Shown here: one piece after another, positions 1,659-38,710 of the stretch | How positions within the stretch are numbered: the stretch's first letter is position 1 | Layout: each line of letters starts with the position of its first letter | Assembly (NCBI GenBank): GCA_004292595.1 | Contig: RDXM01000134.1 | Location: 1-43,765, forward strand | From: Candidatus Kapaibacterium sp. | Lineage (GTDB): Bacteria; Bacteroidota; Ignavibacteria; Kapaibacteriales; UBA4661 | Direction of reading: 5' to 3' | Length of the DNA: 43,765 nt | Notes under the pieces: model-generated | What the model saw: the letters and a program-made list of their open reading frames with translations, nothing else | What the model was told of the DNA's origin: nothing | The model's database searches: none | Program-made: the position numbers and the translations under genes

Positions 1659-1805
1659 GGACGCTGTATTTCTTTATGGTGTGAAACACAAAGATTTGTA
1701 AATTGTGGCGGAAAAATTTGTTGCCTTTGGACGGAAAAGAAAATACGCATTTTTCCGCACCAGCACCATGAAAACCTTTCGCTTTACCTTCTTTGCAGTT
1801 CCAGT

Positions 1806-4429: not shown

Positions 4430-4457
4430 TAGCAGCACTTACACCGCCAGAGAAGAT

Positions 4458-6377
4458 ATGAATGCAGTAACACAGTACTATCACGATACATACACCAAAC
4501 TCAGTACGCACAACCCTGATTACGTGATTCAGTTGAGTGGTATTGCCGAACATCTCGCCGATTGCGGCGACAAAAAAACTGCAACACTCCGCGCACACGA
4601 AGCTCTGGAAGCCGCACGAACACGCAAACACGAAGGCTTGCAGACCACAACACGATGCGAAGCACACTATGCCGAGTACGCTTTGGCAGTCGTGCAGGCA
4701 GAGGACGGGGTGTTTGATGAAGCATTGCCGCATCTTTTCCGTATTATGAACTATGCCGAGGCGCGTCAGTACCGCGAACTACACGCCAAAGCCGCATGGA
4801 GACTGGGTGTGTGCTATTGTCGGATTGCAATGTTTACCACTGCATTGGAGTATTTAACTCAAGCCCGCACCATTGCTCAGGAAATCAGTCATTTTTTGAT
4901 AGAATCTTCGACCTGCACTGCTATTGGCGATGCGCATTTAGGCAGAGAAGATGCTCAAACTGCGCTCCAATACTACCGCGAAGCCCTCCGACTTCTTGAT
5001 ATTACTTCTGCCGAGAACGACGACACAAAACACAGTATTTCTTGGAAAAAGCCATCTATTTTGTTGAATATTGCAACTGCATACAAGTATTTAGGCGGTA
5101 TGCGGCAAGCATTTGTCTATTTCGAGCAAGCACTCACGAGCTACAAACATCAGGAAAATATTGCTGGAATATGCAACGCGCTCATGGGTATTGCCGATGT
5201 GTATTCTACCGAAAAACGCTACGATAAGGCATTAGAACTGCTCTTCACGGCATTCGAGGTGGCACAGCATCACGGTACAGAAAAAGAATTAGGACACGTG
5301 CAATTCGCGCTTGGCCAGATATACCGAGCCGTAGAACGCCCCGAAACCGCGCTTGAATACTTGCTCGCATCAGAAAAACTTCTGGGGGCATCGTCGCTGC
5401 TCAATCTTATTGCGCGAGTGCATGAATCCTTGTCGTTGGTCTATAAATCCTTGCAGCTGTATGAGAAAGCATACCATCATTTGGAAGCATTTCAGGCTAT
5501 CCGCGAACAGACCGCAATGCAAGACGGGAAGCGAGCTGTAAAGTATTTGCAGCAAGGGTTTGAAATGGAGCGAGCGCAAAAAGAAGCAGAAATTTATCGC
5601 TTGAAAAATGTGGAAATAAGCCATGCACAACAAGAAATAGAGCGCCTCCTCTTGAACATCCTGCCTGCGCCCATTGCCCAACGCCTCCGCGAGGGCGAGT
5701 ATCGCATTGCCGATTCTTACGATGCCGTTACCGTTGTTTTTATTGACCTTGTTGGTTTTACGCGCCTTGCAGAGCAGTACTCGGCGGTGCATATTGTTGG
5801 AATGCTCGACCACCTTTTTTCCGAATTCGACGACATTTGCACACGCCTCGGTTTAGAGAAAATTAAAACCATTGGCGATGCCTATATGGCAGTGGCTGGG
5901 CTGCCGTTTCGCCGCGACGACCACGTGCAGCAAGCAGCACTCTTCGCGCTTGCCGTGCAAGCAGTGATGCGCGATCTGGGCAAGCAATACCGCGTACAAG
6001 CGCGAATAGGAATCCACACCGGCAGCGCAGTTGCTGGAGTGATTGGCAAAAGTAAATTTGTTTATGACATCTGGGGCGATACCGTGAACACGGCAAGCCG
6101 CATGGAATCGCACGGCGAGGCAGGAAAAGTGCATATTTCCAACGAAGTGTATCAAGAACTCATTGCGCCTATCTCAACCAATAATATCAACAACAACCAA
6201 CAGCCAGCACTCCATACCTTTGATTTTGAAGAACGTGGAGAAATTGAAGTAAAGGGAAAAGGGCTGATGCGGACGTGGTTTCTCCTTGCTCCCGCTTCGC
6301 AAGACGACCACGACGAGCCTGTGCCTCAGCACAGCGAAACGGATGAACTCGAAACAATGGATTGGAATTTGGAATGA
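4458..6377 (+). CDS. Soluble class III adenylate cyclase with N-terminal TPR domain
   Basis: Predicted cAMP synthase of 639 residues without membrane segments. Residues about 25-350 are helical tetratricopeptide-like repeats (for example ILLNIATAYKYLGGMRQAFVYF and ALGQIYRAVERPETALEYL). A coiled coil (about 370-400) leads through LLLNILP into the catalytic domain (about 415-610). D430 and D474 are the metal ligands, K470 and D537 (YDIWG) the adenine-specifying pair, N544 and R548 the transition-state residues; all are present. The tail after 610 is acidic and low complexity. The ATG at 4458 is preceded by AGAAG and follows the ABC ATPase stop by 28 nt, so the two are probably co-transcribed. 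TPRs in this architecture usually receive a protein partner; which one is unknown. It converges on mfd. Confidence 0.92.
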   Translation: MNAVTQYYHDTYTKLSTHNPDYVIQLSGIAEHLADCGDKKTATLRAHEALEAARTRKHEGLQTTTRCEAHYAEYALAVVQAEDGVFDEALPHLFRIMNYAEARQYRELHAKAAWRLGVCYCRIAMFTTALEYLTQARTIAQEISHFLIESSTCTAIGDAHLGREDAQTALQYYREALRLLDITSAENDDTKHSISWKKPSILLNIATAYKYLGGMRQAFVYFEQALTSYKHQENIAGICNALMGIADVYSTEKRYDKALELLFTAFEVAQHHGTEKELGHVQFALGQIYRAVERPETALEYLLASEKLLGASSLLNLIARVHESLSLVYKSLQLYEKAYHHLEAFQAIREQTAMQDGKRAVKYLQQGFEMERAQKEAEIYRLKNVEISHAQQEIERLLLNILPAPIAQRLREGEYRIADSYDAVTVVFIDLVGFTRLAEQYSAVHIVGMLDHLFSEFDDICTRLGLEKIKTIGDAYMAVAGLPFRRDDHVQQAALFALAVQAVMRDLGKQYRVQARIGIHTGSAVAGVIGKSKFVYDIWGDTVNTASRMESHGEAGKVHISNEVYQELIAPISTNNINNNQQPALHTFDFEERGEIEVKGKGLMRTWFLLAPASQDDHDEPVPQHSETDELETMDWNLE

Positions 6378-11416: not shown

Positions 11417-12550
11417 TTAAAATCGTACCTCGCAATTCGGCAGCAGTTTTTTGATTTTTTCCTGCTCTTCAATAGAAAAATTATTACTGCTCAGAACAAG
11501 CGTTTTCAGAAATGCTAGTTTTTCTATTTCTGCTGGAAGAGCCGTGAGTTTATTACCACCTAAATTCAATACTTTCAAGGTTTTTATTTCCGCCACTATC
11601 GGCAAAAGAGCCGCAACGTTGATAGTGGGATTATTCGTCAATGCAAGCATGGTGAGCTTGGAGAGCTTTGTGATTTCTGAAGGCAAGGCTGTTAGCTGGT
11701 TTCCGCCAAGATACAGCATTTGTAAATTGCTGAGATTGCCAATATCGGCGGGCAACGCAGTGAGTTTATTGCTCGTGAGCGTGAGGATATTCAAACTGGT
11801 GAGCTTGCCGATTTGTGGCGGTAAAGCGGTCAGTTGGTTATTGCTGCAATCCAAACGCTCCAATTTACCCAGATTGCCAATGTCGGCGGGAAGCGTTGCG
11901 ATTTGATTATTCCACGCAATAAGTATCTGCAATGCCGATAATTTCCCAATGTCGGCGGGCAAGGCAGTGAGCTTGTTTGTATTCAAAACGAGCTTGCGCA
12001 ATTCTTTTAAGTTCCCGATTTCTGTGGGCAAGGCGGTAAGTTTATTCGTACTTACGTCGAGAATTTTAATGTTGCTTACCTTCCCAATTTCTGCTGGAAG
12101 CGTTGCCAGTTCATTATTCCAGAGATTCAGATATTGCAAATTCTTCAGCGAAGAAGCAACGACGAGTGCGCTGGCATGGTTCATCTGTGCATTACCGCTT
12201 ATGTCCAGCACTTGCAAGTTCGTTAAACTGGTAATCTCTGACGGCAGCACCGTAATCTGATTGCTCCAAAGATTAAGCCATTGCAGATTTTTCATCTGCC
12301 CAATTTCGGGTGGTACGGCGGTAAGTTTATTATTTTTAAGATTCAAACGAAGAACTTTTGCGGGTTCTTTGAGAGCCTCGTCCATCGAAAGATATTCTTT
12401 CTGAGCAGACAAGGCTACACTATCGAGCAAGACTCCCTGCGCAGATGCGGACAAGACTGGTATTGCGAGCAAGGACACAAGCAATGCAAGCCCAGCAAGA
12501 ACGCTCCGAAAGCGCGAGAAAAGGTGAGAGGAAATGCGAAACACGTTCAT
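11417..12550 (-). CDS. Secreted leucine-rich-repeat protein
   Basis: A 377-residue exported protein of unknown partner. A signal peptide covers about residues 1-37 (LAGLALLVSLLAIPVLSASA). An entry segment MDEALKEPAKVLRLNL leads into about 13 leucine-rich repeats of 23 residues with the consensus LxxLxLxxNxLTALPxEIGxL; two repeats are lengthened (NAQMNHASALVV and NPTINVAALLPIV). The fold should be a short solenoid for protein binding in the periplasm or at the surface. No T9SS tail, lipobox or membrane anchor is visible. The entry segment and the C-cap (NNFSIEEQEKI..LLP) are shared with the TPR-LRR protein at 35417-36727. It lies downstream of the YfiR-like gene (136-nt gap) and upstream of rtcB. 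Confidence 0.9.
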   Translation of the reverse strand: MNVFRISSHLFSRFRSVLAGLALLVSLLAIPVLSASAQGVLLDSVALSAQKEYLSMDEALKEPAKVLRLNLKNNKLTAVPPEIGQMKNLQWLNLWSNQITVLPSEITSLTNLQVLDISGNAQMNHASALVVASSLKNLQYLNLWNNELATLPAEIGKVSNIKILDVSTNKLTALPTEIGNLKELRKLVLNTNKLTALPADIGKLSALQILIAWNNQIATLPADIGNLGKLERLDCSNNQLTALPPQIGKLTSLNILTLTSNKLTALPADIGNLSNLQMLYLGGNQLTALPSEITKLSKLTMLALTNNPTINVAALLPIVAEIKTLKVLNLGGNKLTALPAEIEKLAFLKTLVLSSNNFSIEEQEKIKKLLPNCEVRF

Positions 12551-12686: not shown

Positions 12687-13238
12687 TTATTGAAAAATTT
12701 TCGCCACCTTGAATAAATCCGACGAAAACTCTTGTTTTTCTGCCTTTGCTCGCGCCAGATTGATAAATACTTTTGGTTTGCCAGCTTCCACACCAATAGC
12801 AACCGTAGATTTTCCTGTTTCAATCAAGGACGGCATTCCGGTAATGGTCAAAATGCTGTGGTCTTCGCAGAACTTTTGCGCACCCGAAACGCCCGGCGCA
12901 ATATAGACCACATCGGCATCATCTGCCTCGCGGGCAAGCTGCGGCATCTTACACGCTGTTGCTTGGATGCCAATGGCAATAAATCCGTTTAATGCTTCAT
13001 CTTTCACAATCGAAGAAGCATCGGAAAATACAATCACAACTTTTATTTGCTTGCCTTGCAATGTTTTACTGAGCGAAAACACTTTTTTGAGCAAGACCAC
13101 GTGAAGCTGCACAGGAACAGGAATGTCCTGTGCGTAGCTGACGGTCGGGGTCGCCGAACCCAGCATGAATGCGCCCACGAGCAGCATCAAGACGGGTAGT
13201 ACAACGCCAGAGCGTAGCGTACAAAGAATGTTCATCAT
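12687..13238 (-). CDS. YfiR/DUF4154 family periplasmic protein
   Basis: A 183-residue exported protein (signal peptide about 1-36, ending VSYAQ). The mature part matches the DUF4154 pattern: an early LKKVFSLSKTL, central DADVVYIAPG, ILTITG, a G-rich strand TVAIGVEAGKPKVFINLARA, and the closing EFSSDLFKVAKIF, which parallels the family ending INLxxAKxxGLxxSSxLLKLAxxV. In Pseudomonas, YfiR is a periplasmic repressor of the diguanylate cyclase YfiN; elsewhere DUF4154 genes often sit next to a TonB-dependent receptor, as here (74 nt downstream of the receptor stop). No GGDEF or histidine kinase gene is in the window. Two Cys in the mature part (TACKMP and KFCEDH) could form a disulfide, as in known YfiR. 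Confidence 0.82.
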   Translation of the reverse strand: MMNILCTLRSGVVLPVLMLLVGAFMLGSATPTVSYAQDIPVPVQLHVVLLKKVFSLSKTLQGKQIKVVIVFSDASSIVKDEALNGFIAIGIQATACKMPQLAREADDADVVYIAPGVSGAQKFCEDHSILTITGMPSLIETGKSTVAIGVEAGKPKVFINLARAKAEKQEFSSDLFKVAKIFQ

Positions 13239-13312: not shown

Positions 13313-15460
13313 TTATTTTACTTGCAAACGATACGCTGCTCGCACGAGAATTTCCCGCGAAGGACCAGCAAGGACGGCGTTTCCGGCATTATACGGCTGA
13401 ATAAAATCATAATGTGAACCAAGAACATCATAGACACCTGCACCAACATCCAAGCCAGCAATTTGAAAAACATTTTTAAGATGGACAAAAACGTTCAAAA
13501 GCGCATGAGGCTTGGTTTCTTGGACAGTTTGTACCCCTTCAAAAATTTTCAATTCCGAGACCGTATATCGCCCAGAAAGAAAAATAAACGAAGGATTAAT
13601 CGTCAGACCCTCCAAGACCGAAGAAAGATTAAACGAGGAGTTCAGACAAAGTTTATGCGGCGCGAAGCCAAGCAATACATTATCGTTGGTGAACAAGGAC
13701 TCTTGCCGTCCCTCGCGGCTGGTGCGAAAACTCCACACGCGATACGGATTGAGCGCACGGACGCTATCGGGCAGTCCGTCGTAATTCGCCGTGTAGAACG
13801 AATAGCCTAAATTAACACTTCCCCAGGTATCTTTGAAGAAATATTCTACTTCCACGCCGCGAGTGCCTGTACGAGCGAAGTTTGCGTAGCCGCCACCGCC
13901 AAAAACAATCGCATCCCGAATAGAAATATCGAAAATATTTGCCGAGATAAACATATTGTATTGCAACTGATAGCCCAATTCCACTTCCAGAGCGGTGGTC
14001 AGTTCTGGCTTGATGGCAGGAAACAAGCGAATATTTTCAATTGATGGCGCACGGAAATTTTGCCCAAAGAGTGCTTTGAAATTGAAATTACCAATCGTTT
14101 TGGTAATGCCAAGCCATGGCACAAACGCAAGCGGCACTGCGCTGTGGCGGTCCATGCGCAAACCCGCATTCACGTTCACAATATCGGTCGTGAGCAAGGC
14201 TTGGAGAAATACGCCCAAGTTATTGTACTGCACGGTGCGGCTTTGTACGCCATTGCTATCGCTCCAGAGCGAGGAAATTGGGTCGCGTGAGGAAGCAATA
14301 CCGTTATCAAGATAATACTCGGTGCCGAGCGTGAAAAAGAGAGCTTTGGAAACATCCACCGACACTTGCAAGCTGCCCGTTAGGCGTTCTACCGATTTAT
14401 CAATCACAAGGAAATTGAAGTTTGATGCGGGATTGAGCGCAACCGAATCCGCCAAATTCCACGGCTGTTGCCGCGTGTAGTTGATGCGCGGCGTAAGCGT
14501 AACGCGCTCGGAAATTTTCCAATCATAGCGAGCATCGGCAATGAGCGAGGTGAAATTTGTGCTGAAGGTTTGCGGAAGCGTTTTGCCAATACCATTGCGC
14601 ATGGTCGTATTGTAGCGGTCGTAGAGAACACGCGCTTGGAAATCGCCGTATTTGAGCGAGCCATTGACGTGAAGCGGCATTGTTGTTTGCGTTCCTGCCA
14701 TTGGAAAGGTTACGCCGTCTAAGCCCGTATAGCTGCGGTCGCTGGTGTTTGCTTGCCCCAAATATGCCGACGCGCCAATCGAAACATTGCCGAAATTCTT
14801 GCCAATACTGATGTTTCCGCCATATCGCCCCAGCGCAGAAGACATCTGCCCGAAATTGCCCGACACCGCCACACCGTTGATGTCCTGCGGCAAGCGCGTG
14901 ATGATGTTAATAACGGTCAGTTCTGCAAAGCCGCCATAAAACGACGAGCCGGGACCGCGTATTATCTCAATCCGTTCGATGTTATCGAGAGGAATACGAT
15001 TCGCAATCGGCACTGTCGCAAAAAGAAATTCATTGATTTGCATTCCGTCAATCATCACCAGTGATTTCCCCTCATTTGCCCAGTTTCCACGCGCTCCAAA
15101 GCCGATAATTCCTTGCACGTCTCCGCCAAACTCCACGCCCGGCACAAGGCGCAGCACGTCTATCAAATCACGCGCACCAGAATTAACGATTTCCTCGCGC
15201 TTAATCAACGTAACAACACCCGGCACATCTTTTTTTGCCAACGGCTTTTTCGATGCAACCTGCATCAAATCTATGTCCAAGAGCTTATCGAAATCAATGG
15301 AATCAAGTGCGGTGATGTCCATTTTAGAAAAATCTTGTGCGTGTGCTGCAAGCGGCATCATTGCGAGAATTGCAGCCAACGTAAGGCAATACAACACACG
15401 GATAAACGCTCCACACAATGGTACAGCTAATGGTACAGCTCTCATAGTTTCCCTCTTCAT
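13313..15460 (-). CDS. TonB-dependent outer-membrane receptor
   Basis: A 715-residue outer-membrane gated channel, energised by TonB/ExbBD (not in this window). A long signal peptide ends near AAHAQ (about residue 42). The segment KLLDIDLMQVASKKPLAKKDVPGVVTLIKREEI starts the plug domain (about 60-195: SGARDLIDVLRLVPGVEF, LVMIDGMQINE, IERIEIIRGPGSSFYG, INIITR). The remaining ~500 residues alternate as in a 22-strand barrel and end in VRAAYRLQVK. The plug opening resembles the receptor subtype found beside DUF4154 proteins, which fits the YfiR-like gene 74 nt downstream. The substrate is unknown; no siderophore, vitamin or SusD gene is nearby. The ATG at 15460 is preferred over the first ATG of the frame because it gives a compact signal peptide. 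Confidence 0.92.
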   Translation of the reverse strand: MKRETMRAVPLAVPLCGAFIRVLYCLTLAAILAMMPLAAHAQDFSKMDITALDSIDFDKLLDIDLMQVASKKPLAKKDVPGVVTLIKREEIVNSGARDLIDVLRLVPGVEFGGDVQGIIGFGARGNWANEGKSLVMIDGMQINEFLFATVPIANRIPLDNIERIEIIRGPGSSFYGGFAELTVINIITRLPQDINGVAVSGNFGQMSSALGRYGGNISIGKNFGNVSIGASAYLGQANTSDRSYTGLDGVTFPMAGTQTTMPLHVNGSLKYGDFQARVLYDRYNTTMRNGIGKTLPQTFSTNFTSLIADARYDWKISERVTLTPRINYTRQQPWNLADSVALNPASNFNFLVIDKSVERLTGSLQVSVDVSKALFFTLGTEYYLDNGIASSRDPISSLWSDSNGVQSRTVQYNNLGVFLQALLTTDIVNVNAGLRMDRHSAVPLAFVPWLGITKTIGNFNFKALFGQNFRAPSIENIRLFPAIKPELTTALEVELGYQLQYNMFISANIFDISIRDAIVFGGGGYANFARTGTRGVEVEYFFKDTWGSVNLGYSFYTANYDGLPDSVRALNPYRVWSFRTSREGRQESLFTNDNVLLGFAPHKLCLNSSFNLSSVLEGLTINPSFIFLSGRYTVSELKIFEGVQTVQETKPHALLNVFVHLKNVFQIAGLDVGAGVYDVLGSHYDFIQPYNAGNAVLAGPSREILVRAAYRLQVK

Positions 15461-15503
15461 GGTTCTTGGTTTTATGCACCTTCCACACGACAACGCTTGT
15501 CAA

Positions 15504-15722: not shown

Positions 15723-18700
15723 CTAGCGCAGCACCGTAAAGAGGGTTTGCACACGTTGAATTGGCGTTTCTAGTGCCACAAGATACGTGCCAGGCGGATA
15801 ATCCCGCACATCCAGCGTTTCCGATTGTTCCCCAGCATCTTTCGCACCAGCCTGAATCACGCGCAATACGTTGCCGCGCATATCCATAATTCGCAAGGTT
15901 ACGATTTGCGGCGTGGCGAGATTATACGCAATAGTCAGGCTTTCTGGTGCTGGATTGGGATACGTCCGCACTATCCCCTGCGGCGTTGCTGGTGGCGTGG
16001 TGTCAATGCCGCCCGGCGTAAAGACGAAGCGGTCTTGCGAAGAAGCAACACCCGTTGGCGAAGAAATAATGATGCTGCCGCTTGGCAGTGCGCCCGTGCG
16101 TGGCAAAAACAGCGTCATTTCATTCACACTGATAAGACGGAACGGAATTGCCACACCGCCAATAAACACCGATGTTACTGTGCCAAAATTTTCGCCAAAA
16201 ACTTGCAACACCGTTCCTACGTCGCCGCGTGTGGGCGTAAACGAGGTAATAAGCGGCGCAGACGTAATCAGCGTAAACGACGTTGTGCTGCTGACCACGC
16301 CAAGCGGCGTTGTTAAGCCAATCACGCCAGAAACCCCTTCGGGCGGCACAGTGAGCGTTACCTGCGTTGCGCCGACCATCTGCGGCGTAATTGCCACGTT
16401 CACGCCGCCGATGCTTGCTTGCGTTGTTCCCGCAAGATTCCGTCCCGTAATTGTGATGCGCGTTCCAGGTCTGCCGCGAGCGGGCGAAACACCAGTAATG
16501 GCGGGCAATGCAGGCATTCCTTCCGTCCGAGCCATGCCGCCTTGCGTCATCACCGTTACCACATCATTCGGCGTAACACCCGCCGGAATAGAAGCCGTCA
16601 GCTGTGCGGGATTGACGATGGTGAAGGGAACGTTTGTCCGACCGATATTCACGTTTTGTGTTCCCGTGAAATTCTCACCAGAGATGCGCAAAATCAAGCC
16701 TTGACGGCTTTGCACAAAAACCGCACTGGCAATACTTGGCGGCGGAACGTAGCGGAATGTTTGCTGCGAAATTCCCACGCCGCCCGCACTGGTGATAGTA
16801 ATGGTACCGCTTGCCGCGCCGGAAAGCGGAATCACGACACTGATTTGCGTATCGCTATTGACCGTAAAAGGAACGCTCACGTTGCCAATCACCACGCTGC
16901 TCGCACCCGTAAAGGCTCGTCCGGTGACAACGATAACTGTACCAAGCCCACCAACGCTCGGCGTAAAAGAAATACTTCCTGGCTGAGGAATAAAACTAAA
17001 TCCCGCACGAGTACCCGTGCCACCTTCAGCCGTTACCGCCACTTCGCCTGTCGCGCCAGAGCTAAGGATTGCTGTGATTTGCGTCGGCGAGACCAGCGTA
17101 AACCGTGCTGCTGGAGCGCCGCCAAAACTCACCGCGCTTGCTTGGGTGAAATTTGCACCAATAATCGTTACTGCCATGCCCGCACCCGCTCCACGTGGCG
17201 TGAAACCCGAAACGACAGGCGGCGCAATGAAGCGAAATCCCGCTAGTTCAATCGTTCCGCTCGAGGCAGTGATACTTACGTTACCGCTCGAACTGCCCGC
17301 CGCAACCACCGCCGTTGCTTGCGTGTCGGAAATACGGACAAAGGAAGCTGCCAGCACGCCACCAAAACGTACTTCGCTTAATCCCGCAAAATTTACTCCA
17401 GTAATCGCAATGACCGTGCCAGAGCTTGCTCGCGTCGGCGAGAACGATGTGATGCGTGGCGGCGCAAGCAAACTAAAGCCATTTCTACTTGCCGTGCCGC
17501 CCAGTGTCAGCACCGTGATAGTGCCGCCGGTTGTGCCTTGCGGAACGCTTGCCCGAATCAGCGTTGGCGAAACAACAACCACATTTGGCGAGAGAACGCC
17601 GCCAAAACTTACTTGCGCAGTAGTTGTGAAGTTGATGCCCGTAATGGTGATAATGTTTGTCGGCGCAGCGACAATCGGCATAAAACCGTCAATCACGGGC
17701 GAATCCACAAAGACAAAGCCCGGCAGCGAATCCGTGCCGATAGGAGTGCGCACAAACACCGCACCACTCCTTGCTCCATCAGAAACAATAGCATTGATGC
17801 GGGTATCAGAAACGACCTCGTGGCGCAGAGCTATCATTCCACCAAAACGCACTTCGGAAGCATCCGTGAAATTTGCTCCCGTGATAGTAACCATGCCGCG
17901 CCGACCTGATATTGTTGGCGTGAAGCTCAGGATTGTTGGTGCGACCGCAAAAGTAAATCCTGAGCGCGAACCAGAACCGCCAAGCGCAGTAACGCGCACT
18001 TCGCCCGTCGCGCCCGTTGCAAGCGTCGCGGTGATGCGATTTGCCAGAACGCTAAAGGATGCCGCAGAAACACCACCAAAACTCACAGCACTGACGTTGA
18101 TAAAGTTCTCACCGTCAATCACAACCGTTTGCCCTGCACCCGCACGAGATGGCGCAAAAGCAAGTACCTGTGCTGGTGGCAGGAATGCAAAACCGCCTAA
18201 TTCTGCCGTTCCTGTTTGCGTGATAACCTGCACCGAACCTGTCGAAGCAGTCGTAATAAACGCTTCTAATTCTGTGGGCGAAAAGACCGTAAACCGCGCT
18301 GCCGATACGCCACCGAAGCGCACATCGCGCACGCCGACAAAGTTTGCCCCGCTCACAAAAATACGCATTCCGCTGCCAGCCGTTGTCGGGCTAAAACCTT
18401 GCACTCTTGGCGGTGGCGCAACAAAACTGAACATTTGCGTTGAAACGCCCGCGCCACCTGCACTCACCACCGAAACTGTACCGTTTGAGCTGTTCGCTCC
18501 GATAACAGCCGTAATGACGGAATCGGACACAATCGTAAAGCTACCTGCCGCCAAGCCACCAAAGCGCACTGAGCGCACAGCCGCGAAATTGCGCCCAACA
18601 ATGCGCACCGTCGTCCCAACTTCGCCTGTTTGCGGAGAAATGCTCGCCACAACTGGCGTAGAAACAAAGACGATACCCGTGCTAGAAGCCACGCCGCCGA

Positions 18701-21700
18701 GCGTTGCGACTGTTACGCGCCCCGTCGCGCCATTGCCCACGACCGCTTCAATTCTTGTTTGCGAGAGCGCAGAAACGCTTGCTGCCGTTACGCCGCCAAA
18801 CCAAACATTTTGCACTGTGCTGAGATTTGTTCCCGAAATCACCACGCGCAGACCTTCGCCAGATTCTCGCGGCGAAACGTCCGTAATGGTCGGCTCAGGA
18901 ACAAACGTATAGCCCGCAACGCTCGCCGTTCCTGCTGTTGTGGTAACAGAAACGTTGCCCGTCGAACCCGTTGCAACAACAGCGATAATTTGATTGGGCG
19001 AAACCACACGGAAACTCGCCGCCGTTACCTCGCCAAAGCTGACACGCGATGCGCCCGTGAAATTAAAACCAGAAATGGTAATCGTCGCATTCGAGCCGCT
19101 CGACGTTGGCGTAAAACGTACAATCGTCGGTGGTGGAAGCGTTGTAAAAGCGGAGGAAGTCGTTGTGCCGCCTGGATTTGTCAGTGCAATCGCACCACTG
19201 CCCGAAACTACAACGCGAATTTCATTGGGAGAAACAATCGTAAACATCGCAGGAACACCGCCAAACGTGATTGCCGTTACGTTGGCAAGGTTTTGTCCCG
19301 TAATTGTAACGGTTGTTCCGACAATCGCGCTCTGTGGCGCGATGCTCGTAATCACAGGAACGGGAACGAAGATAAATCCTTGCAAGGTCGCCGTACCGCC
19401 TGGAGTCCGCACCGATACTGCGCCCGATGCTCCATTTGCCGAGACGGTTGCCGTTATTTCGCGCGAAGAAGAAGCCGCGAAACGCTGTGCATCCACGCCG
19501 CCAAATGTCGCGGCACTAACGCTCAGGAAGCCCGTGCCAGAAATAGTAATTGTTGCGCCTGGTCCGGCAGTTTTCGGGGTAAAATCAGCAATCGTTGGCA
19601 TGGGAAATTGGAACGTAAATCCCGCGAGCGTTGCCGTTCCGTCTGGCGACGTAACCGAAATGCTTCCCGATGCACCTTCCGCCGACACAATCGCCGTAAT
19701 CTGCGACGGCGACACAACCGCAAAGCGTTCTGCTGGAACGCCGCCAATCCGCACGTCGGTAACAGCCGCGAAATTTGCTCCAAAAATTGTTATCGTTTGC
19801 CCAACTCCAGCCGATACGGGCGTGAAGCTCGTCAGGCGCGGTGCGGGCAAATACACAAACCCGCTTATACTGCCCGTGCCGCCGGGAGTAGAAACCGTTA
19901 TCGGGTCGCCTGCATTGACTGGAACAACGGCGGTCATTTGCGTTGCCGAAATCACGGTGAATGTTGTCGCTGGACGACCGCCGAAGTTCACTGCCGTCGC
20001 GCCCGTGAAGTTCGTTCCTGTGAACGTAATCACTGCGCCGGGTTCGCCGCTTGTGGGCGCGATGCTGGTGATAGTCGGATTATTGACGAAGGTAAATCCT
20101 GCCGTCGCGCTCGTGCCGCCGAGCGTTTGCACCGAGACCGCTCCCGATGCGCCCGCCGCAACGACCGCCGTAATTTGCGATGGACTATTGACCGTGAAGT
20201 TTGTCGCCGCAATGCCGCCAAAGCGCACCGATACTGCGCCCGTGAAGTTTGCTCCCGTTACCGTTACTGGCGCACCCGTTCCCGCCGACGCTGGCGTAAA
20301 TCCGCTCACAATGGGCGCAGGAACAAAGGTAAAGCCAATGCGCGAAGCCACACCGCCCGTTGTATTTACCTGCACAACGCCCGTCATACCGCCGACTGGA
20401 ACGGTTGCGAGAATTTGCGTCGGCGAAACAACGAGCCACATACTTGCTGGAACACCGCCAAACAACACGCCCGTAACACCCGTGAAATTTGTTCCTGTAA
20501 TCAGCACATTGATGCCCGGACCCGCGCTTGCAGGTGCGAAGGCAGAAATCGTTGGTGCTGCTAAGAAGGTAAATCCTGCAAGCGAAGCAGTACCGCCAGA
20601 GGTTGCAACCATAATTGAACCAGACGTAGCATTTGCGCCAAGCACAGCCGTTATTTGCGTTGGCGAAACAAGCATATAGCTTGCAGCAGGGAAATTACCA
20701 AAATTCACCGCATTCAGTGTTGGGAAGTTCGTGCCATTGATGGTAATTGTCGCGCCAGATGCGGCGATTGTTGGCGTGAAGCTCGTAATGGTGGGCGTTC
20801 CAGCAAAAATAAACCCTGCCGAATTTGCTATGCCGCCAGGCGTTGTTACTTGCACCATACCGCTTGTTCCCACGCCGACCGTTGCGATAATTTGATTATC
20901 CGACATCACCGAATACGTCAGTGCTAGTGTGCCGCCAAAACTGACTGCCGTCGCGCCCGACAAAAACGTTCCGTTGATAACAACAGGCATCGTTACGCCT
21001 GCCGTTCCGGGCGTGAAGCTCGTAATCGTCGGTGGAGGAGCGAGATACGTAAAGCCAGCAAGATTGCCAATACCGCCCGCCGTTGTTACCGACACCGCGC
21101 CCGTGGTGCTTCCTGCGGCAACTGTCGCGTTGATTTGTGTTGGAGAAATAACGGTAAAACTCGTGGCTGGAACGCCGCCAAAGCGTACTTGCGTCGCGCC
21201 AGTGAAGTGCATTCCTGTCAGTGTTACAACCGCTCCAGGAGCCGCATTTACGGGCATAAAGCTGGTAATGACTGGCGTTGGCACCCACGTAAAGCCCGCA
21301 AAATTGCTCGTGCCGCCCGGACCCGTTACCGAAACGTTGCCGCTTGCGCCGCCCGCAACCACAGCATTTATCTGAGTTGCAGACACGACGCTGAAACTCG
21401 TTGCGGGAACACCACCAAAATTTACCGCCCAAACGCCCGTAAAACCTGAACCCGTAATGACGACCGTCATCGTCGGACCCGCGCTTGTGGGCGAAATTCC
21501 CGTGATGGTCGGTCCGGGCAGAAATGTGAATCCCGACGCGCTGATTGTTCCGCCCGGTGTTGTTACTTGGATATTCCCCGATGCTGCACCCGCCGGGACA
21601 ACCGCCGAAAGCAGTCCCGGACCAATGACAAGAAAACTTGCTGCTGGCACACCGCCAAAGCTCACTGCCGTTGTTCCTGTGAAAAAACTCCCGTTAATAA

Positions 21701-24700
21701 GCACCGTCGCACCCGCACCAGCACTTGTTGGAGCAAAGCTAGAAATCGTTGGTGGCGCAATAAAAGTAAAGCCTCCAAGAGTACCGGGACCGCCCGGACC
21801 AGTTACCACCACGTTTCCACTGGCACTACCCGCCGCCACAACAGCATTTATCTGGGTTGGCGAAACAATAATAAAACTTGCTGCGGGAACACCGCCGAAA
21901 CTCACGGCGGTTGTTCCTGTGAAGTTTGTCCCTGTAATTATGACTATCGCCCCCGCAGCCGCGCTTGAAGGCGTAAGAAGCACGGGATTTGGCGGCAAAA
22001 GATAGGTAAATCCTGTGAGCGAGCCTGTGCCAAAGGCAGACGTAACCTCTACACTGCCCGACGCACCAGCATCCACCGTTGCGGTAATGACCGTTGAGGA
22101 CATCACCATAAATGTTATTGCTGGAACACCACCAAAACTCACGCCCGTTGCGCCCGTGAAGTTATTGCCAATAATCGTAACGGTTTGCCCCATACCACGA
22201 CTGGTCGGCGTAAAAGAAGAAACCACAGGCGCGGGAATGTATGTAAAGCCGCCGAGCGTCGCTACGCCGCCGAGCGTTGTCATTTGCACATTTCCCGACG
22301 CACCAGCCGCTCCAACCCGCGCCGTTACTTGCGTTGGCGAGACCGTCGAGAAACTCATTGCGGGCATTCCCCCAAAATTTACGCCCGTAACACCAACGAA
22401 GTTTGTGCCGTTGATTGTTACGGTATTGCCGCCGCCCTGACTCGTGGGAGTAAAGTTCGCTATTGTTGGCGTGAAATACAAATAGGTAAAGCCGCCCTGC
22501 GTTACCGTGCCGCCTGGACCTATCACGCTCACATTCGCCGTCGCGCCCGTGCCGACGGTAGCGGTGATTTGCGTGGCTGAAACAACGGTAAACGGCACAG
22601 AAACACCGCCAATTTCTACTTGTGTTGTTGGCGTGAAGCCCGTTCCGTTGATAGTCATGACATTGCCCAGACCAGCACTCGTTGGCGTAAAAGTGGTTAT
22701 TGTTGGTGGAGGAATAAACGTAAATCCTCCTTGTGGTGCGCTGCCGCCAGGTGTCGTTACCGTCACAGAGCCGCTCGCGCCCGCGCCCACAACGGCGGTA
22801 ATTTGCGTATTGCTATTCACAACATATGCTGCATTCACGCCGCCAAACTGCACTTGCGTCGCGCCCGTGAAGTTATTCCCCGTAATCACGACGGTTGCTC
22901 CATTTCCCGCGCTCGTTGGAACGAAGCCAAGAATAGACGGCGCAGAAGCACTATGCACAAAACCGCCCAGCACACCTGTGCCGCCAGGCGTAACGACTTC
23001 GACGTTCCCGCTCGCGCCCGCGCCCACAACGGCGGTGAGCTGCGTGGCAGAGATAGGCGTAACTCCTGTGGCAACGACGTTCCCAAAGCGCACTTGCGTT
23101 ACGCCGCCAAGATTTGTTCCGTTAATTGTTACCACTGTTCCCGCAACGCCCGCCGTTGGTGAGAAACTCGTAATTGTCGGTGCGGCAATGAAGGTAAAGC
23201 CCGCAGCATTCACCGAACCGCCAACATTCGACACCGTTACATTTCCCGATGCACCCGCGCCCACAACGGCGGTGATGAGCATTGAATTCACAACGTTCAC
23301 GCTCATCGCTGGAACACCGCCAAAACTCACACTCGTGCCAGCAGCAAAGTTTGTTCCGTTAATGGTAATCGTCGCGCCTGCTCCAGCGGTCATAGGCGTA
23401 AAACCCGTAATCGTTGGTGCGGGAGCAAAGGTAAAGGCTGTTGCTGCTGTTGCCATACCACCCGGAGTGCGCACCACCAGTGGCGTTGTTGCACCTGCTG
23501 GAACAACTGCTGTTATCACCGTCGGCGAAACAACCGTAAAAGCTGCCGCGTTGATACCACCAAAGGTAACGGTGGTTGTGCCAACAAAATTATTTCCGTT
23601 AATTGTTACGACGGTTGTTGCTCCGGCGGGATTGGGCGAATAGCTGGTAATGCTCGGAGCGGCTTGCCACGTAAAACCCGCTTGCGTAGCCGTTCCGCCC
23701 GGCGTAACGACTTGCACCGCGCCCGATGCACCCGCCGCAAGCATAGCATTTATCTGGGTTGCAGAAACAACGGTGAAACTCGACGCGGGCGTACCGCCAA
23801 AACGCACAACGGTCGCACCAAAAAAGTTTGTTCCTGTAATCGTAACAACTGTTCCATTTCCACCGCTTGTGGGTGTAAAATTTGTTATCGTCGGTACGGG
23901 TGCCATGAAGGTAAAATTTGTGGCAGAATTTACCGTGCCGCCAGGCGAAACAACCTGCACTGCTCCCGACGAGCCAAGCCCCAGCGCTGCGGTAATTTGC
24001 GTGGGCGAGTCCACCGTAAAAGATGCTGCTGCCGTCCCGCCAAAATTCACTTGCGTTGCGGGCGTGAAGTTTGTTCCGGTGATAGTTACCACCGTTCCTG
24101 CAATACCGACTGCTGGAGTAAAGCTCGTGATAGTGGGCGCGGGATGCCATGTAAAATTCGTGGCAGAATTGGCAGGAGGCGCACTGAGCGTTGTTACTTG
24201 TACTGTTCCCGTCATTCCCGCACCAACCGTTGCGTTTATCTGCATTGGAGAAACGACCATATGGCTTGCTGCCGCCGTACCGCCGAAGCTCACTGCTGTT
24301 ACGTTCTGGAAATTTGTTCCAAAAATGCTGACAACGGTTGTGTTTCCGCCAGAGGCAGGAGTAAAGCTCGTAATGGTCGGCGGTGGTGCGAGAAAAGTAA
24401 ATGTTCCCGCCGAATTAACCCCGCCGCCGGGCGTTGTTACGCGCACAACCCCAGTAACTGCACCTGCTGGGACGGTTACGGTGATTTGCGTGTTTGAGTT
24501 TACCGTATAGGCAGGGCAGTTCACACCGCCAATCTGTACTTGCGTCGCGCCCGTAAAGTTATTTCCTGTAATCACCACCATCGCACCTGCCGCCGCCATT
24601 GTTGGAAGAAAGCCAGCAATCGTCGGGGCTGCGAACGTAAAAGTTGTAGCAGAATTGACCGTCCCGCCCGCCGTTGAAACCGCGACAAGTCCCGTCGTTC

Positions 24701-26888
24701 CTGCGCCAACAGTTGCCGTGATGACGCTTGCCGTGTTGGTGTTGATGCTTGCAGGCGTTCCACCGACGGTTACGGCTGTTGCAGCACCAAGATTGCTGCC
24801 GTTAATCGTAATGACCGTGCCGACTGCTCCAGTTGCGGGCGTAAAACTCGTAATGGTGGGTGCGGGAACGAAAGTGAACATCATAGGATTCGATGTACCA
24901 ACACCATTCGGCGTGGTTACTTGCACAAAACCAGATGCGCCCAAAGCCCCGACGTTACACGTAATTTGCGTTGCCGAAACCACAACAACGCTCGTTGCCG
25001 CAACACCACCAAAGGTAACCGTTGCTGGCGCAACAAAATTTGTTCCTGTAATCGTTACCGACATTCCAGGACCACGCGACATTGGCGCAAAGCCAGTAAC
25101 GGTAGGCGGTGCAAGAAAGGTAAAGCCGCCCTGCGTTACCGTTCCGCCAGGATTGGTAACAAGCACGTTTCCTGTCGCGCCGATGCCAACGGTTGCGGTG
25201 ATACTCGTGGCAGTATTCGCCGTGATTGTGGCTGGAACGCCGCCAAAGCTGACGAGCGTCGCGCCAGAGAGATTTGTTCCCGTGATAACAACCGACGCGC
25301 CAGCCGCCGCGCTCGTGGGCGCGAAGCTGGTAATTGTTGGTGCGGGAATGAAGGTAAAGCCGCCTTGCGTTGCCGTGCCGCCGGGTGTTGTGACAACGAC
25401 ATTCCCCGACCCGCCACCTGCGGCAACCGTTGCGACAATCATTGTCCCTGAATTAGAAACAATCGTTGCTGGAACACCGCCAAAACTCACGAGTGTCGCG
25501 CCGCCTAAATTCGTGCCGACAATCGTAACGTTCATCCCGCCGCCTTGGCTCATGGGCGTAAAACTTGTAATGGATGGCGGTGGAATAAAGGTAAACAGAG
25601 CAACCGAAAGCGCAGTGCCGCCCGGCGTGGTAACGGCAATATTGCCCGTCATGCCGCCTGCGCCGATAGTTGCGGTGATTTGCGTTGCGTTCACGACCGT
25701 AAAACTTGTTGCCGCAACACCGCCAAAACTCACCGCCGATGCACCCGTGAAGTTTGTTCCGTTAATGGTTACGAGCGTTCCTGCTCCGCCGGTAGTGGGC
25801 GTAAAACCTGTAATTGTCGGCACAGGAGCAGGTCCGATAGCGCGAATACGATGATTATTGAGGTCCGCAACATAAGCATTGCCCGAAGCATCCATGACAA
25901 CGCCGCTTGGTGCATTGAATTGTGCGGCAGTGCCGACGGCATTCAGGAAACTTGCCGCGCCGCTTCCCGCCAGCGTCGTAACGATGCCCCCAGGCGTAAT
26001 GATGCGAATCCGATGACCACCATTTTCGGCAACAAGGATGTTTCCTGCGCCATTGACCGAGATTCCCGTGGGAGAATTGAAGAGTGCTACCGAGCCTGTG
26101 CCGTCGGCATAGCCGCTTGTATTGCCCGCAAGCGTTGTTACTGCGCCGGCGGCTGTTGTTACGGCGCGAATGCGATGATTATTTTGGTCGGCAACATAAA
26201 CAATCGTTCCTGCGCCATTAACGGCGAGTGCTACGGGCAGATTAAACTGCGCTCCTGCGCCCATACCGTCGGTGCTACCAGCCGTCGCGCTCCCTGCGAG
26301 CGTTGTCACCACGCCAAGTGCCGTAATTCTGCGAATCCGATTATTGATGTAATCTGCTACGTAAACATTCCCTGCGCCGTCCACCGCCACGCCCGTCGGA
26401 AATTGAAACTGTGCAAGCGTTCCCGTTGCATCACTAAAACCACCAACGCCGCTCCCTGCGAAGGTGCTGACCACGCCAGCAGAAATCTTGCGAATGCGGT
26501 GATTGCCAAAATCTGCTACATACACATTCCCCGCGCCGTCCACTGCTACGCCTGTTGGCTGGTTGAATTGCGCCGAAGCTGCTGCTCCTTCTGCCCAGCC
26601 AGACGCGCCCGTGCCAGCGAAGGTCGTTACCACACCAAGCGGCGTGATGCGGCGAATGCAATGGTTGAGCTTGTCAGCAACGTACAGATTACCGCTTCCG
26701 TCAATAGCAATGCCGTTGGGTTGGTTAAATTGCGCTAACACGCCTGTATTGTTCACCAAGCCCGCCGTGCCGCTTCCAGCAAAGGTGGTCACGCTTTGTG
26801 CGAAAGCGGAGGAATGCTTCTGAGGAAAAAAGAAAATACTACTCATGCAAAAACACCAACACACCCCAAGCACAAGACGCAAGGACAT
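15723..26888 (-). CDS. Giant surface protein: NHL propeller, 41 IPT/TIG domains, T9SS tail
   Basis: About 3,721 residues from the ATG at 26888; the open frame extends to a GTG at 26978 and a tandem ATG at 26951/26948. The chosen start gives a clean signal peptide (MSLRLVLGVCWCF ... SSAFAQ). Next come six NHL repeats (VTTFAGSG..., AQFNQPTGVAVDGAGNVYVAD..NHRIR), enough for one six-bladed propeller (about 25837-26800 on the DNA). I count 41 consecutive IPT/TIG domains of about 80 residues (PTITSFTP..G..V.ITGTNF.G.T.V.FGG..A..F.VVS.TQI.A.V..GASG.V.V.TPGGT). The last ~90 residues are a T9SS type A sorting domain (YPNPAPESLTIAYNL, MDMRGNVL, YPPGTYLVAL). Predicted role: a very long extracellular fibre or adhesin exported through T9SS. 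The ligand is unknown. It is monocistronic and bracketed by the 28-nt repeats P1 and P2. The first ~24 TIG domains nearly lack charged residues. Confidence 0.93.
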   Translation of the reverse strand: MSLRLVLGVCWCFCMSSIFFFPQKHSSAFAQSVTTFAGSGTAGLVNNTGVLAQFNQPNGIAIDGSGNLYVADKLNHCIRRITPLGVVTTFAGTGASGWAEGAAASAQFNQPTGVAVDGAGNVYVADFGNHRIRKISAGVVSTFAGSGVGGFSDATGTLAQFQFPTGVAVDGAGNVYVADYINNRIRRITALGVVTTLAGSATAGSTDGMGAGAQFNLPVALAVNGAGTIVYVADQNNHRIRAVTTAAGAVTTLAGNTSGYADGTGSVALFNSPTGISVNGAGNILVAENGGHRIRIITPGGIVTTLAGSGAASFLNAVGTAAQFNAPSGVVMDASGNAYVADLNNHRIRAIGPAPVPTITGFTPTTGGAGTLVTINGTNFTGASAVSFGGVAATSFTVVNATQITATIGAGGMTGNIAVTTPGGTALSVALFTFIPPPSITSFTPMSQGGGMNVTIVGTNLGGATLVSFGGVPATIVSNSGTMIVATVAAGGGSGNVVVTTPGGTATQGGFTFIPAPTITSFAPTSAAAGASVVITGTNLSGATLVSFGGVPATITANTATSITATVGIGATGNVLVTNPGGTVTQGGFTFLAPPTVTGFAPMSRGPGMSVTITGTNFVAPATVTFGGVAATSVVVVSATQITCNVGALGASGFVQVTTPNGVGTSNPMMFTFVPAPTITSFTPATGAVGTVITINGSNLGAATAVTVGGTPASINTNTASVITATVGAGTTGLVAVSTAGGTVNSATTFTFAAPTIAGFLPTMAAAGAMVVITGNNFTGATQVQIGGVNCPAYTVNSNTQITVTVPAGAVTGVVRVTTPGGGVNSAGTFTFLAPPPTITSFTPASGGNTTVVSIFGTNFQNVTAVSFGGTAAASHMVVSPMQINATVGAGMTGTVQVTTLSAPPANSATNFTWHPAPTITSFTPAVGIAGTVVTITGTNFTPATQVNFGGTAAASFTVDSPTQITAALGLGSSGAVQVVSPGGTVNSATNFTFMAPVPTITNFTPTSGGNGTVVTITGTNFFGATVVRFGGTPASSFTVVSATQINAMLAAGASGAVQVVTPGGTATQAGFTWQAAPSITSYSPNPAGATTVVTINGNNFVGTTTVTFGGINAAAFTVVSPTVITAVVPAGATTPLVVRTPGGMATAATAFTFAPAPTITGFTPMTAGAGATITINGTNFAAGTSVSFGGVPAMSVNVVNSMLITAVVGAGASGNVTVSNVGGSVNAAGFTFIAAPTITSFSPTAGVAGTVVTINGTNLGGVTQVRFGNVVATGVTPISATQLTAVVGAGASGNVEVVTPGGTGVLGGFVHSASAPSILGFVPTSAGNGATVVITGNNFTGATQVQFGGVNAAYVVNSNTQITAVVGAGASGSVTVTTPGGSAPQGGFTFIPPPTITTFTPTSAGLGNVMTINGTGFTPTTQVEIGGVSVPFTVVSATQITATVGTGATANVSVIGPGGTVTQGGFTYLYFTPTIANFTPTSQGGGNTVTINGTNFVGVTGVNFGGMPAMSFSTVSPTQVTARVGAAGASGNVQMTTLGGVATLGGFTYIPAPVVSSFTPTSRGMGQTVTIIGNNFTGATGVSFGGVPAITFMVMSSTVITATVDAGASGSVEVTSAFGTGSLTGFTYLLPPNPVLLTPSSAAAGAIVIITGTNFTGTTAVSFGGVPAASFIIVSPTQINAVVAAGSASGNVVVTGPGGPGTLGGFTFIAPPTISSFAPTSAGAGATVLINGSFFTGTTAVSFGGVPAASFLVIGPGLLSAVVPAGAASGNIQVTTPGGTISASGFTFLPGPTITGISPTSAGPTMTVVITGSGFTGVWAVNFGGVPATSFSVVSATQINAVVAGGASGNVSVTGPGGTSNFAGFTWVPTPVITSFMPVNAAPGAVVTLTGMHFTGATQVRFGGVPATSFTVISPTQINATVAAGSTTGAVSVTTAGGIGNLAGFTYLAPPPTITSFTPGTAGVTMPVVINGTFLSGATAVSFGGTLALTYSVMSDNQIIATVGVGTSGMVQVTTPGGIANSAGFIFAGTPTITSFTPTIAASGATITINGTNFPTLNAVNFGNFPAASYMLVSPTQITAVLGANATSGSIMVATSGGTASLAGFTFLAAPTISAFAPASAGPGINVLITGTNFTGVTGVLFGGVPASMWLVVSPTQILATVPVGGMTGVVQVNTTGGVASRIGFTFVPAPIVSGFTPASAGTGAPVTVTGANFTGAVSVRFGGIAATNFTVNSPSQITAVVAAGASGAVSVQTLGGTSATAGFTFVNNPTITSIAPTSGEPGAVITFTGTNFTGATAVNFGGRPATTFTVISATQMTAVVPVNAGDPITVSTPGGTGSISGFVYLPAPRLTSFTPVSAGVGQTITIFGANFAAVTDVRIGGVPAERFAVVSPSQITAIVSAEGASGSISVTSPDGTATLAGFTFQFPMPTIADFTPKTAGPGATITISGTGFLSVSAATFGGVDAQRFAASSSREITATVSANGASGAVSVRTPGGTATLQGFIFVPVPVITSIAPQSAIVGTTVTITGQNLANVTAITFGGVPAMFTIVSPNEIRVVVSGSGAIALTNPGGTTTSSAFTTLPPPTIVRFTPTSSGSNATITISGFNFTGASRVSFGEVTAASFRVVSPNQIIAVVATGSTGNVSVTTTAGTASVAGYTFVPEPTITDVSPRESGEGLRVVISGTNLSTVQNVWFGGVTAASVSALSQTRIEAVVGNGATGRVTVATLGGVASSTGIVFVSTPVVASISPQTGEVGTTVRIVGRNFAAVRSVRFGGLAAGSFTIVSDSVITAVIGANSSNGTVSVVSAGGAGVSTQMFSFVAPPPRVQGFSPTTAGSGMRIFVSGANFVGVRDVRFGGVSAARFTVFSPTELEAFITTASTGSVQVITQTGTAELGGFAFLPPAQVLAFAPSRAGAGQTVVIDGENFINVSAVSFGGVSAASFSVLANRITATLATGATGEVRVTALGGSGSRSGFTFAVAPTILSFTPTISGRRGMVTITGANFTDASEVRFGGMIALRHEVVSDTRINAIVSDGARSGAVFVRTPIGTDSLPGFVFVDSPVIDGFMPIVAAPTNIITITGINFTTTAQVSFGGVLSPNVVVVSPTLIRASVPQGTTGGTITVLTLGGTASRNGFSLLAPPRITSFSPTRASSGTVIAITGVNFAGLSEVRFGGVLAASFVRISDTQATAVVAAGSSSGNVSITASSGTIELAGFRFIAPPVVSGFTPRGAGAGMAVTIIGANFTQASAVSFGGAPAARFTLVSPTQITAILSSGATGEVAVTAEGGTGTRAGFSFIPQPGSISFTPSVGGLGTVIVVTGRAFTGASSVVIGNVSVPFTVNSDTQISVVIPLSGAASGTITITSAGGVGISQQTFRYVPPPSIASAVFVQSRQGLILRISGENFTGTQNVNIGRTNVPFTIVNPAQLTASIPAGVTPNDVVTVMTQGGMARTEGMPALPAITGVSPARGRPGTRITITGRNLAGTTQASIGGVNVAITPQMVGATQVTLTVPPEGVSGVIGLTTPLGVVSSTTSFTLITSAPLITSFTPTRGDVGTVLQVFGENFGTVTSVFIGGVAIPFRLISVNEMTLFLPRTGALPSGSIIISSPTGVASSQDRFVFTPGGIDTTPPATPQGIVRTYPNPAPESLTIAYNLATPQIVTLRIMDMRGNVLRVIQAGAKDAGEQSETLDVRDYPPGTYLVALETPIQRVQTLFTVLR
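16010..25830 (-). repeat. Tandem array of 41 IPT/TIG-encoding units (about 240 bp each)
   Basis: The coding array has a mean unit of about 240 bp (80 codons). Units are recognisable on the plus strand by recurring complements of FGGVPA (GCxGGxACxCCGCCAAA) and of TPGGT (GTGCCGCCxGGxGT). Units near 20080-25830 (N-terminal part of the protein) are the most alike; those at 16010-20080 are more diverged. Similar long units are prone to homologous recombination, so copy number may vary between strains. Confidence 0.9.
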
Positions 26889-27054
26889 AATCGTAATACG
26901 GCGCACTGACGAAGCATTGCGCAGACAAGCAAATACGGAACGAGACATCATAAAAGCAATAAGAAGTGGCTTCAGCACAAGGACAAGTAAAAGAGAGACA
27001 TTATCTCTTTGTCGTACATTTACTCATTTACTCTCGGCAGAAGCAAATGAAACA

Positions 27055-38589: not shown

Positions 38590-38710
38590 GCGTGTTTGCT
38601 TACGGACTGCTGATGTATCCTTGATGCAGAGGATGGTTTTTTCTTCACTTTTATTTTGAATAATTATGCTATGGAAGCCTGATTCTACCACGTTTGACGG
38701 GCAACATTCC

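Follow-up and report, generated by a model that had tools for sequence, protein, structure and literature searches.

A giant NHL-TIG protein with a type IX secretion tail in a Candidatus Kapaibacterium genome, and its linkage to TonB-plug and YfiR-like genes

Described systems closest to the locus

Among the proteins exported by the type IX secretion system (T9SS), SprB and RemA of Flavobacterium johnsoniae are large and displayed at the cell surface, as described in PMC11205867. Here we analyse a gene that would encode a protein of this general kind, located in a stretch of 43,765 nucleotides from Candidatus Kapaibacterium sp. (assembly GCA_004292595.1, contig RDXM01000134.1, positions 1 to 43,765 of the forward strand; this whole stretch is called the window). 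The gene encodes an NHL-repeat propeller, 41 tandem TIG domains and a T9SS type A tail, and we refer to its product as the fibre; it is linked to genes for a TonB-plug outer-membrane barrel and a YfiR-like protein. Among known kinds, the locus comes closest to T9SS adhesins, to TIG-type glycan-binding proteins and to the YfiBNR system. A literature search returned no paper combining any two of NHL repeat, TIG domain and type IX secretion, and nothing on a cluster of YfiR, TonB receptor, CHASE8 and methyl-accepting proteins.

The fibre differs from SprB and RemA in its type A tail, NHL head, TIG rod and TonB-plug/YfiR-like linkage, and the family TIGR04131 is unmatched. GhpA, which serves ixotrophy in Aureispira, is likewise a giant T9SS-secreted protein, and its Ig-like fold weakly matches the TIG rod; in contrast, no sequence match joins the two among the matches listed, and the heptameric hook is a feature of GhpA. 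Among solved structures, the TIG-unit profile finds its best match in BACOVA_02650, in which a TIG rod also holds a binding part, although its chain of 456 amino acids is about eight times shorter and its head is different. BACOVA_02650 is presumably of the SGBP-B type and encoded near a TonB-dependent barrel; it is anchored at the end opposite to that expected for the fibre, and we know of no YfiR or CHASE8 partners for it.

The linked genes resemble YfiBNR in that a YfiR-like protein is found with an outer-membrane partner, to which the related genome G009 adds CHASE8-HAMP inner-membrane proteins, CHASE8 domains being of the type under YfiR control in other systems. CHASE8 is what we take to be the Pfam name for the periplasmic domain of YfiN. 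This domain is called PAS in PMC4655355, where YfiR of Pseudomonas is described as bridging it and the outer-membrane protein YfiB. Unlike YfiBNR, the cluster has a TonB-plug barrel as outer-membrane partner instead of the OmpA-like lipoprotein YfiB, its outputs in G009 are a histidine kinase and a chemoreceptor instead of GGDEF, a giant fibre is added, and the YfiR match is marginal. The best NCBIfam matches of the barrel and YfiR-like genes are the pair TOL_0244/TOL_0243 (NF053590 and NF053591), at 83.5 versus 645 and 18.8 versus 125 bits, far under the equivalog cut-offs.

The giant gene and its TIG array

An open frame at 15723-26978 opens with a GTG and extends unbroken over 3751 codons of the minus strand (residues are numbered from this GTG), while the plus-strand frame across the same positions is interrupted by stops. 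Judged from the sequence, the ATG at codon 31 (MSLRLVLG...) is a likelier start than the GTG, giving a gene at 15723..26888 and a product of 3721 residues, in agreement with the roughly 3,720 of the original prediction. That prediction had found the frame and missed its minus strand, its giant siblings, the conservation of the array and the conserved gene cluster. Residues 31-60 (26799..26888, minus strand) form a putative signal peptide, judged by eye from a hydrophobic core followed by S-A-F-A/Q, an AxA-type site ahead of Q61; a comparable N-terminus is present in the orthologues listed. The remaining domains, on the same strand, are a six-bladed NHL propeller at residues about 62-384 (25827..26795), 41 TIG (IPT) domains of about 79-80 amino acids each at residues 389-3655 (16014..25814), and a T9SS type A C-terminal sorting domain at residues 3673-3739 (15762..15962). 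Domain searches over the translated frame matched NHL, TIG and T9SS type A, and with the signal peptide read by eye they recovered the order that had been predicted.

The head matched Pfam NHL with 132 bits (cut-off 20), five stretches passing singly, and a hidden Markov model (HMM) built in this analysis resolved six blades. Six four-stranded blades were also obtained with AlphaFold2 for the head together with TIG units 1-2 (alignment of 17 sequences; mean predicted local distance difference test score, pLDDT, 95.2), which bears out the propeller foreseen for this region. In the model the N-terminal strand 5-10 appears to complete blade 6 as its fourth strand, and the order of the strands, as distinct from coordinates, suggests that the ring is closed. 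Foldseek and sequence searches grouped the head with NHL propellers, including a teneurin-like protein, SUPPRESSOR OF QUENCHING 1, NHLRC2, Pizza designs and TRIM71. At the other end of the protein, the tail scored 36.4 bits with PF18962 (cut-off 27) and 28.8 bits with TIGR04183 (cut-off 23). The PF18962 cut-off was passed by all nine fibre tails tested, the window's own among them. The type B tail family TIGR04131 was not matched, TIGR04183 being the sole tail family among the three NCBIfam matches at E 0.001.

Between head and tail, Pfam TIG recognised 37 stretches counted singly, the NCBIfam repeat family NF058597 matched 30, and an HMM made from the giant protein itself delimited 41 units without large gaps after one negative-score hit inside the propeller had been discarded. 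The units share a mean protein identity of 45% with a maximum of 71%. The structure predicted for five middle units had a pLDDT of 92.7 and a predicted TM-score (pTM) of 0.65, so that the individual TIG domains can be relied on, unlike their orientation to one another. Tandem Repeats Finder detected no tandem DNA array within the giant gene. A frame break or an artefact of repeat assembly was rejected, since collapse or expansion of a DNA repeat is improbable when no such array is found, the units have diverged and independent genomes agree on 40-41 units.

We searched for the head in 61 genomes, of which 28 matched, and followed up ten of the family (G000, the window's own genome, to G009); all are drafts and several are fragmented. 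The end of the giant gene was found at 51-100% identity in all eight genomes of the genus and in G009, which belongs to another genus, so the layout looked for in related genomes has orthologues in nine of the ten family genomes. The orthologue of G002 is known by its gene end alone, and in G008 (70% complete) no gene end matched at that level of identity. With rows scoring 5 or less omitted, the six complete orthologues have 41, 41, 40, 40, 40 and 40 units. The array of G001 is split on two contigs with 32 units (last partial) and 12 (first partial), and appears to hold 43 if both partials belong to one unit. The array of G009 has 15 units (last partial) on contig C142 and 25 on C58, which we infer to be the head and tail of one gene.

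The order of the units is also conserved. Plain best matches fell on the diagonal for 41 of 41 units in G005, and elsewhere mostly lay off it, with one of 40 on the diagonal in each of G006, G004, G003 and G007, three of 32 in G001 and one of 15 in G009; a shift by one unit accounts for part of this, and even then the best match of most N-terminal units is not their counterpart. Double centring made the diagonal stand out in each of the 15 pairings of complete copies, displaced by one unit where a 41-unit copy is paired with a 40-unit one. In each of the 21 pairs tested, the unit-order alignment scored higher than any of 60 permutations; this comparison excludes G009, drops the last partial unit of G001 and, for pairs with G001, uses a length selected from the observed data. 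In the N-terminal half of the G009 array, no positional correspondence was demonstrable. The 40-unit copies aligned unshifted in all six pairs, and the extra unit of the 41-unit copies was placed at unit 4 in five of eight pairs and within about the first ten units in the other three. Position specificity is highest in the last three units (54-62% identity to counterparts versus 33-37% to others), whereas unit 30 is nearer to other units (41%) than to its assigned counterparts (35%). A number of 40-41 units in corresponding order indicates an old array of almost invariant length. This constancy may reflect selection for length, or merely too little DNA similarity for recombination; with the apparent 43 units of G001 and copies too divergent to recombine easily, selection for array length is unproven. 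The ratio of nonsynonymous to synonymous substitution rates (dN/dS) between G000 and G005 was 0.08 for the head, 0.14-0.15 for the array, 0.09 for the tail and 0.06 for the TonB-plug and YfiR-like genes, rough values given a dS of 0.7-1.2, and these sequence comparisons point to purifying selection on the fibre and on both linked genes.

The window's protein is one of many giant NHL/TIG proteins in its genome, where we counted 84 T9SS tail matches (74 above cut-off), 115 TIG matches and 38 NHL matches. The T9SS translocon protein SprA (TIGR04189), the sole part of the translocon searched for, was found over cut-off on contig C51. The nearest relatives in the named collection are metagenome-assembled genomes labelled 'Ignavibacteria bacterium' and 'Candidatus Kapaibacterium', and by sequence similarity the host is assigned to the Kapabacteria/Ignavibacteria group. 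A sibling of 5291 amino acids on C170 also combines NHL, TIG and a T9SS tail in one frame; unlike the fibre, it has single TIG domains spaced between five propellers and ends in nine TIG, with no 40-unit rod. A layout of one propeller followed by at least 30 TIG units was confined to the fibre and its orthologues among the open reading frames (ORFs) of at least 400 amino acids scanned at loci L021-L105 (the best 80 matches plus some siblings, with limited flanks). Together with the literature search, this is in line with the earlier remark that no described protein of exactly this layout was known.

Other giants in the scan are built as bead chains in which single TIG domains separate the NHL propellers: in G000 on C170 (L021, L023), C34 (L024) and C63 (L025), and at L036, L041 and L057, the last with nine propeller-TIG pairs. 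The frames of L024 and L025 leave their contig ends with identical last 30 residues, where a repeat common to both probably broke the assembly. A shorter protein (frames of 740-793 amino acids) on G000:C64, G001:C488, G006:C71, G004:C12, G002:C232 and G007:C112 resembles the last 425 residues of the giant at 31-35%, and its G000:C64 copy has TIG and T9SS matches. Within the window, another T9SS-tailed protein, with Big_9-type repeats, is encoded at 38666-42211 (plus strand), and a T9SS tail match below cut-off (22.3 bits) lies at 1638-2612 (plus strand).

The conserved cluster and the CHASE8 proteins

Three genes on the same strand follow the giant gene in the window: a TonB-plug outer-membrane receptor (13313..15493, minus; closest to NF053590), a YfiR/HmsC-like protein (12687..13238, minus; DUF4154, closest to NF053591) and a leucine-rich-repeat (LRR) protein with an N-terminal signal sequence judged by eye (11417..12550, minus). 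In Pfam the barrel matches only Plug (E 0.01). We compared the gene neighbourhoods of eight genomes (G000, G001, G003-G007 and the head contig of G009), with flanks of unequal length. The families common to six or seven of the eight were the giant protein (without the window's own copy), the TonB-plug, YfiR-like and LRR proteins; the next most shared neighbour occurred in three (G001, G004 and G006), several genes off the cluster, and the remaining ones in two. The TonB-plug gene is next after the giant gene on the same strand in all nine genomes that have the giant (G000-G007 and G009), being broken into two frames in G002. It is followed by the YfiR-like gene in eight of the nine, the contig of G001 ending after the TonB-plug gene. 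The LRR gene is linked in eight of the nine, upstream of the fibre in G001, G003, G004, G006 and G007 and downstream in G000, G005 and G009; the contig of G002 stops short of it.

In G009, genes on one strand encode in succession the fibre tail, the TonB-plug protein (75% identity), the YfiR-like protein (79%), the LRR protein (60%), a second YfiR-like protein (71%) and two CHASE8 proteins, namely a CHASE8-HAMP-HisKA-HATPase protein of 507 amino acids and, last, a CHASE8-HAMP-MCP chemoreceptor of 612 amino acids. Full-length matches to this chemoreceptor, at 54-62% identity, were found on other contigs in seven of the eight genus genomes; the best one listed for G002 reaches 38%, and the matches of G008 either cover just the cytoplasmic part or reach no more than 35%. 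Frames of 488-536 amino acids matching the CHASE8-HAMP part at 56-68% were present in seven of the eight (not G004), and from their sequence these seem to resemble the G009 kinase.

Matches to the YfiR family (DUF4154) lie near CHASE8 in the seven genus genomes scanned, 9 of 32 within 0.4 kb and 13 of 32 within 6 kb, none of these being fibre-linked, and neither family was found in three genomes of the same order. In three of five genomes (G001, G004 and G006), the gene next to a paralogous barrel/YfiR-like pair, the YfiR-like part of which is 43-55% identical to that of the window, encodes a CHASE8-HAMP protein; in G005 it encodes an oxidoreductase, and in G000 a MacB-like protein. A giant fibre is never the next gene to this pair, but a giant TIG protein lies three genes upstream on the same strand in G000, and one in the other direction in G004. 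A second TonB-plug barrel stands near a CHASE8-HAMP-MCP-like gene at G004:C8:61825-66428, G001:C553:6531-11078, G006:C95:149829-154332 and G009:C336:7180-11666, with a YfiR-like gene between the two in the three genus genomes (G004, G001 and G006); by its gene context this barrel is perhaps an outer-membrane receptor wired to the chemoreceptor. At L138 (G000:C147), the gene of a CHASE8-HAMP-SpoIIE phosphatase-type protein, a candidate for another output type for the same input, has a TonB receptor gene and a YfiR (DUF4154) gene no more than 6 kb away.

The paralogous pair also bears on the identity of the fibre-linked protein. DUF4154 is the sole Pfam family matched by its relatives (eight of nine at E 0.1), and in four of five genomes (G001, G004, G005 and G006) the paralogous YfiR-like part scores above the Pfam cut-off of DUF4154, which supports the assignment of the fibre-linked protein as YfiR-like; on sequence similarity this assignment is marginal. 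Two further genes of the window are nucleotide cyclases, one assigned by Pfam (141-1658, minus strand) and a putative one judged from sequence (4377-6377, plus strand).

Possible roles of the fibre

We propose, as a tentative reading that we hold just short of probable, that the fibre is a T9SS-displayed sensory or adhesive structure feeding a relay of barrel, YfiR-like and CHASE8 proteins. The T9SS would export the fibre, and the C-terminal sorting domain would leave its C-terminal end attached at the cell surface; for Porphyromonas, T9SS cargo is described in PMC11205867 as being cleaved and attached to the surface through its new C-terminal end. The rod of 41 TIG domains would then project with the propeller at its free N-terminal tip, where it may capture or touch a ligand or a surface. 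An Ig-like domain is about 3.5-4 nm long, and 41 such units would thus make a rod of roughly 150 nm. The barrel may read occupancy or tension of the fibre at the outer membrane, the YfiR-like protein may pass the signal across the periplasm, and CHASE8 signal proteins would change their activity. The steps past surface display are suggested by gene linkage.

Several observations weigh against this proposal. The YfiR-like protein of the window passes the DUF4154 cut-off by a margin of 0.7 (25.6 bits versus 24.9) and matches the second half of the family only; the DUF4154 scan of the seven genus genomes recovers the fibre-linked gene in two of the six where it is visible (G000 and G005), and in profile-profile comparison the fibre-linked proteins matched four YfiR proteins from the genus only weakly (probability 5.8, E 0.0065). 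Because of the YfiR result, we lowered our assessment of the proposal from an even balance to slightly below it. In G000 and G005, the two genomes in which the scan found the fibre-linked YfiR-like gene, a span of 6 kb to either side of it contains no CHASE8 match, and G009 is the only genome in which the whole chain from fibre to CHASE8 is linked. The original prediction of a long fibre with a binding head fits our results as far as an exported rod with a free N-terminal propeller is concerned; as to binding, which we infer, conservation in the orthologue columns showed no clear difference between the loop classes of the propeller and no clear binding face. Finally, the linkage could reflect co-regulation instead of contact.

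That last point leads to a plain adhesion or matrix fibre, whose propeller would bind a glycan, a neighbouring cell or a mineral, the linked genes being merely co-regulated and not sensing the fibre. We consider this possible, if on the doubtful side. It would agree with an architecture like that of other large T9SS adhesins (PMC11205867) and with the many giant NHL/TIG/T9SS proteins of the genome, and gene linkage is the whole of the case for signalling, with a marginal YfiR match. Yet the linkage is selective, the cluster being kept while nearly all other neighbours change, and it spans two genera, with CHASE8 sensors included in one cluster. An unlikely alternative in our judgement is a nutrient-capture arm, in which the head of the TIG rod delivers substrate to the adjacent TonB-dependent barrel in the manner of the Sus-type IPT/TIG glycan-binding proteins. 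The similarity of the TIG units to the IPT/TIG protein BACOVA_02650, the structure of which was solved with a xylogluco-oligosaccharide, and the TonB-plug barrel in the adjacent gene would both suit such an arm, but the barrel has no CarboxypepD_reg, a hallmark of SusC, next to its Plug match. Moreover, neither SusD nor a glycan enzyme occurs among the linked genes (barrel, YfiR-like and LRR, and in G009 also the kinase and chemoreceptor), and the CHASE8 partners point towards signalling.

We give still less weight to an appendage for predation or motility, such as the Aureispira grappling hook GhpA or the gliding adhesin SprB, which seems improbable even though T9SS secretion is shared with both proteins as presented in PMC11205867. 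Fragments of GhpA (9flw, 9fly, 9flv and others) did appear among the Foldseek matches of the five-TIG model; the match is generically Ig-like, however, with TM-scores by query length of 0.23-0.27, and no GhpA chain was present among the 17 TIG-profile matches (E up to 1) or among the 60 listed of 71 whole-protein matches. In addition, only type A of the two T9SS tail families matches.

A narrower form of the relay proposal is that the fibre, with its roughly 40 domains and a length of perhaps 150 nm, is the extracellular input of the relay, contact or tension being conveyed through the barrel and the YfiR-like protein to CHASE8 chemoreceptors and kinases. We regard this form as rather doubtful; if it is true, the cell would touch at a distance and then steer or switch its state. 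Annotation of giant surface proteins in uncultured bacteria does not usually go beyond 'adhesin, function unknown'. In the present case such a giant shows unit-by-unit conservation across a genus and is tied to a specific pair of outer-membrane and YfiR-like proteins, and in one genome inner-membrane sensors are tied to the fibre cluster. The proposal raises the concrete question of whether a T9SS fibre signals through a TonB-plug barrel to CHASE8 receptors and, if true, would provide a route by which a diderm cell senses contact far from its surface.

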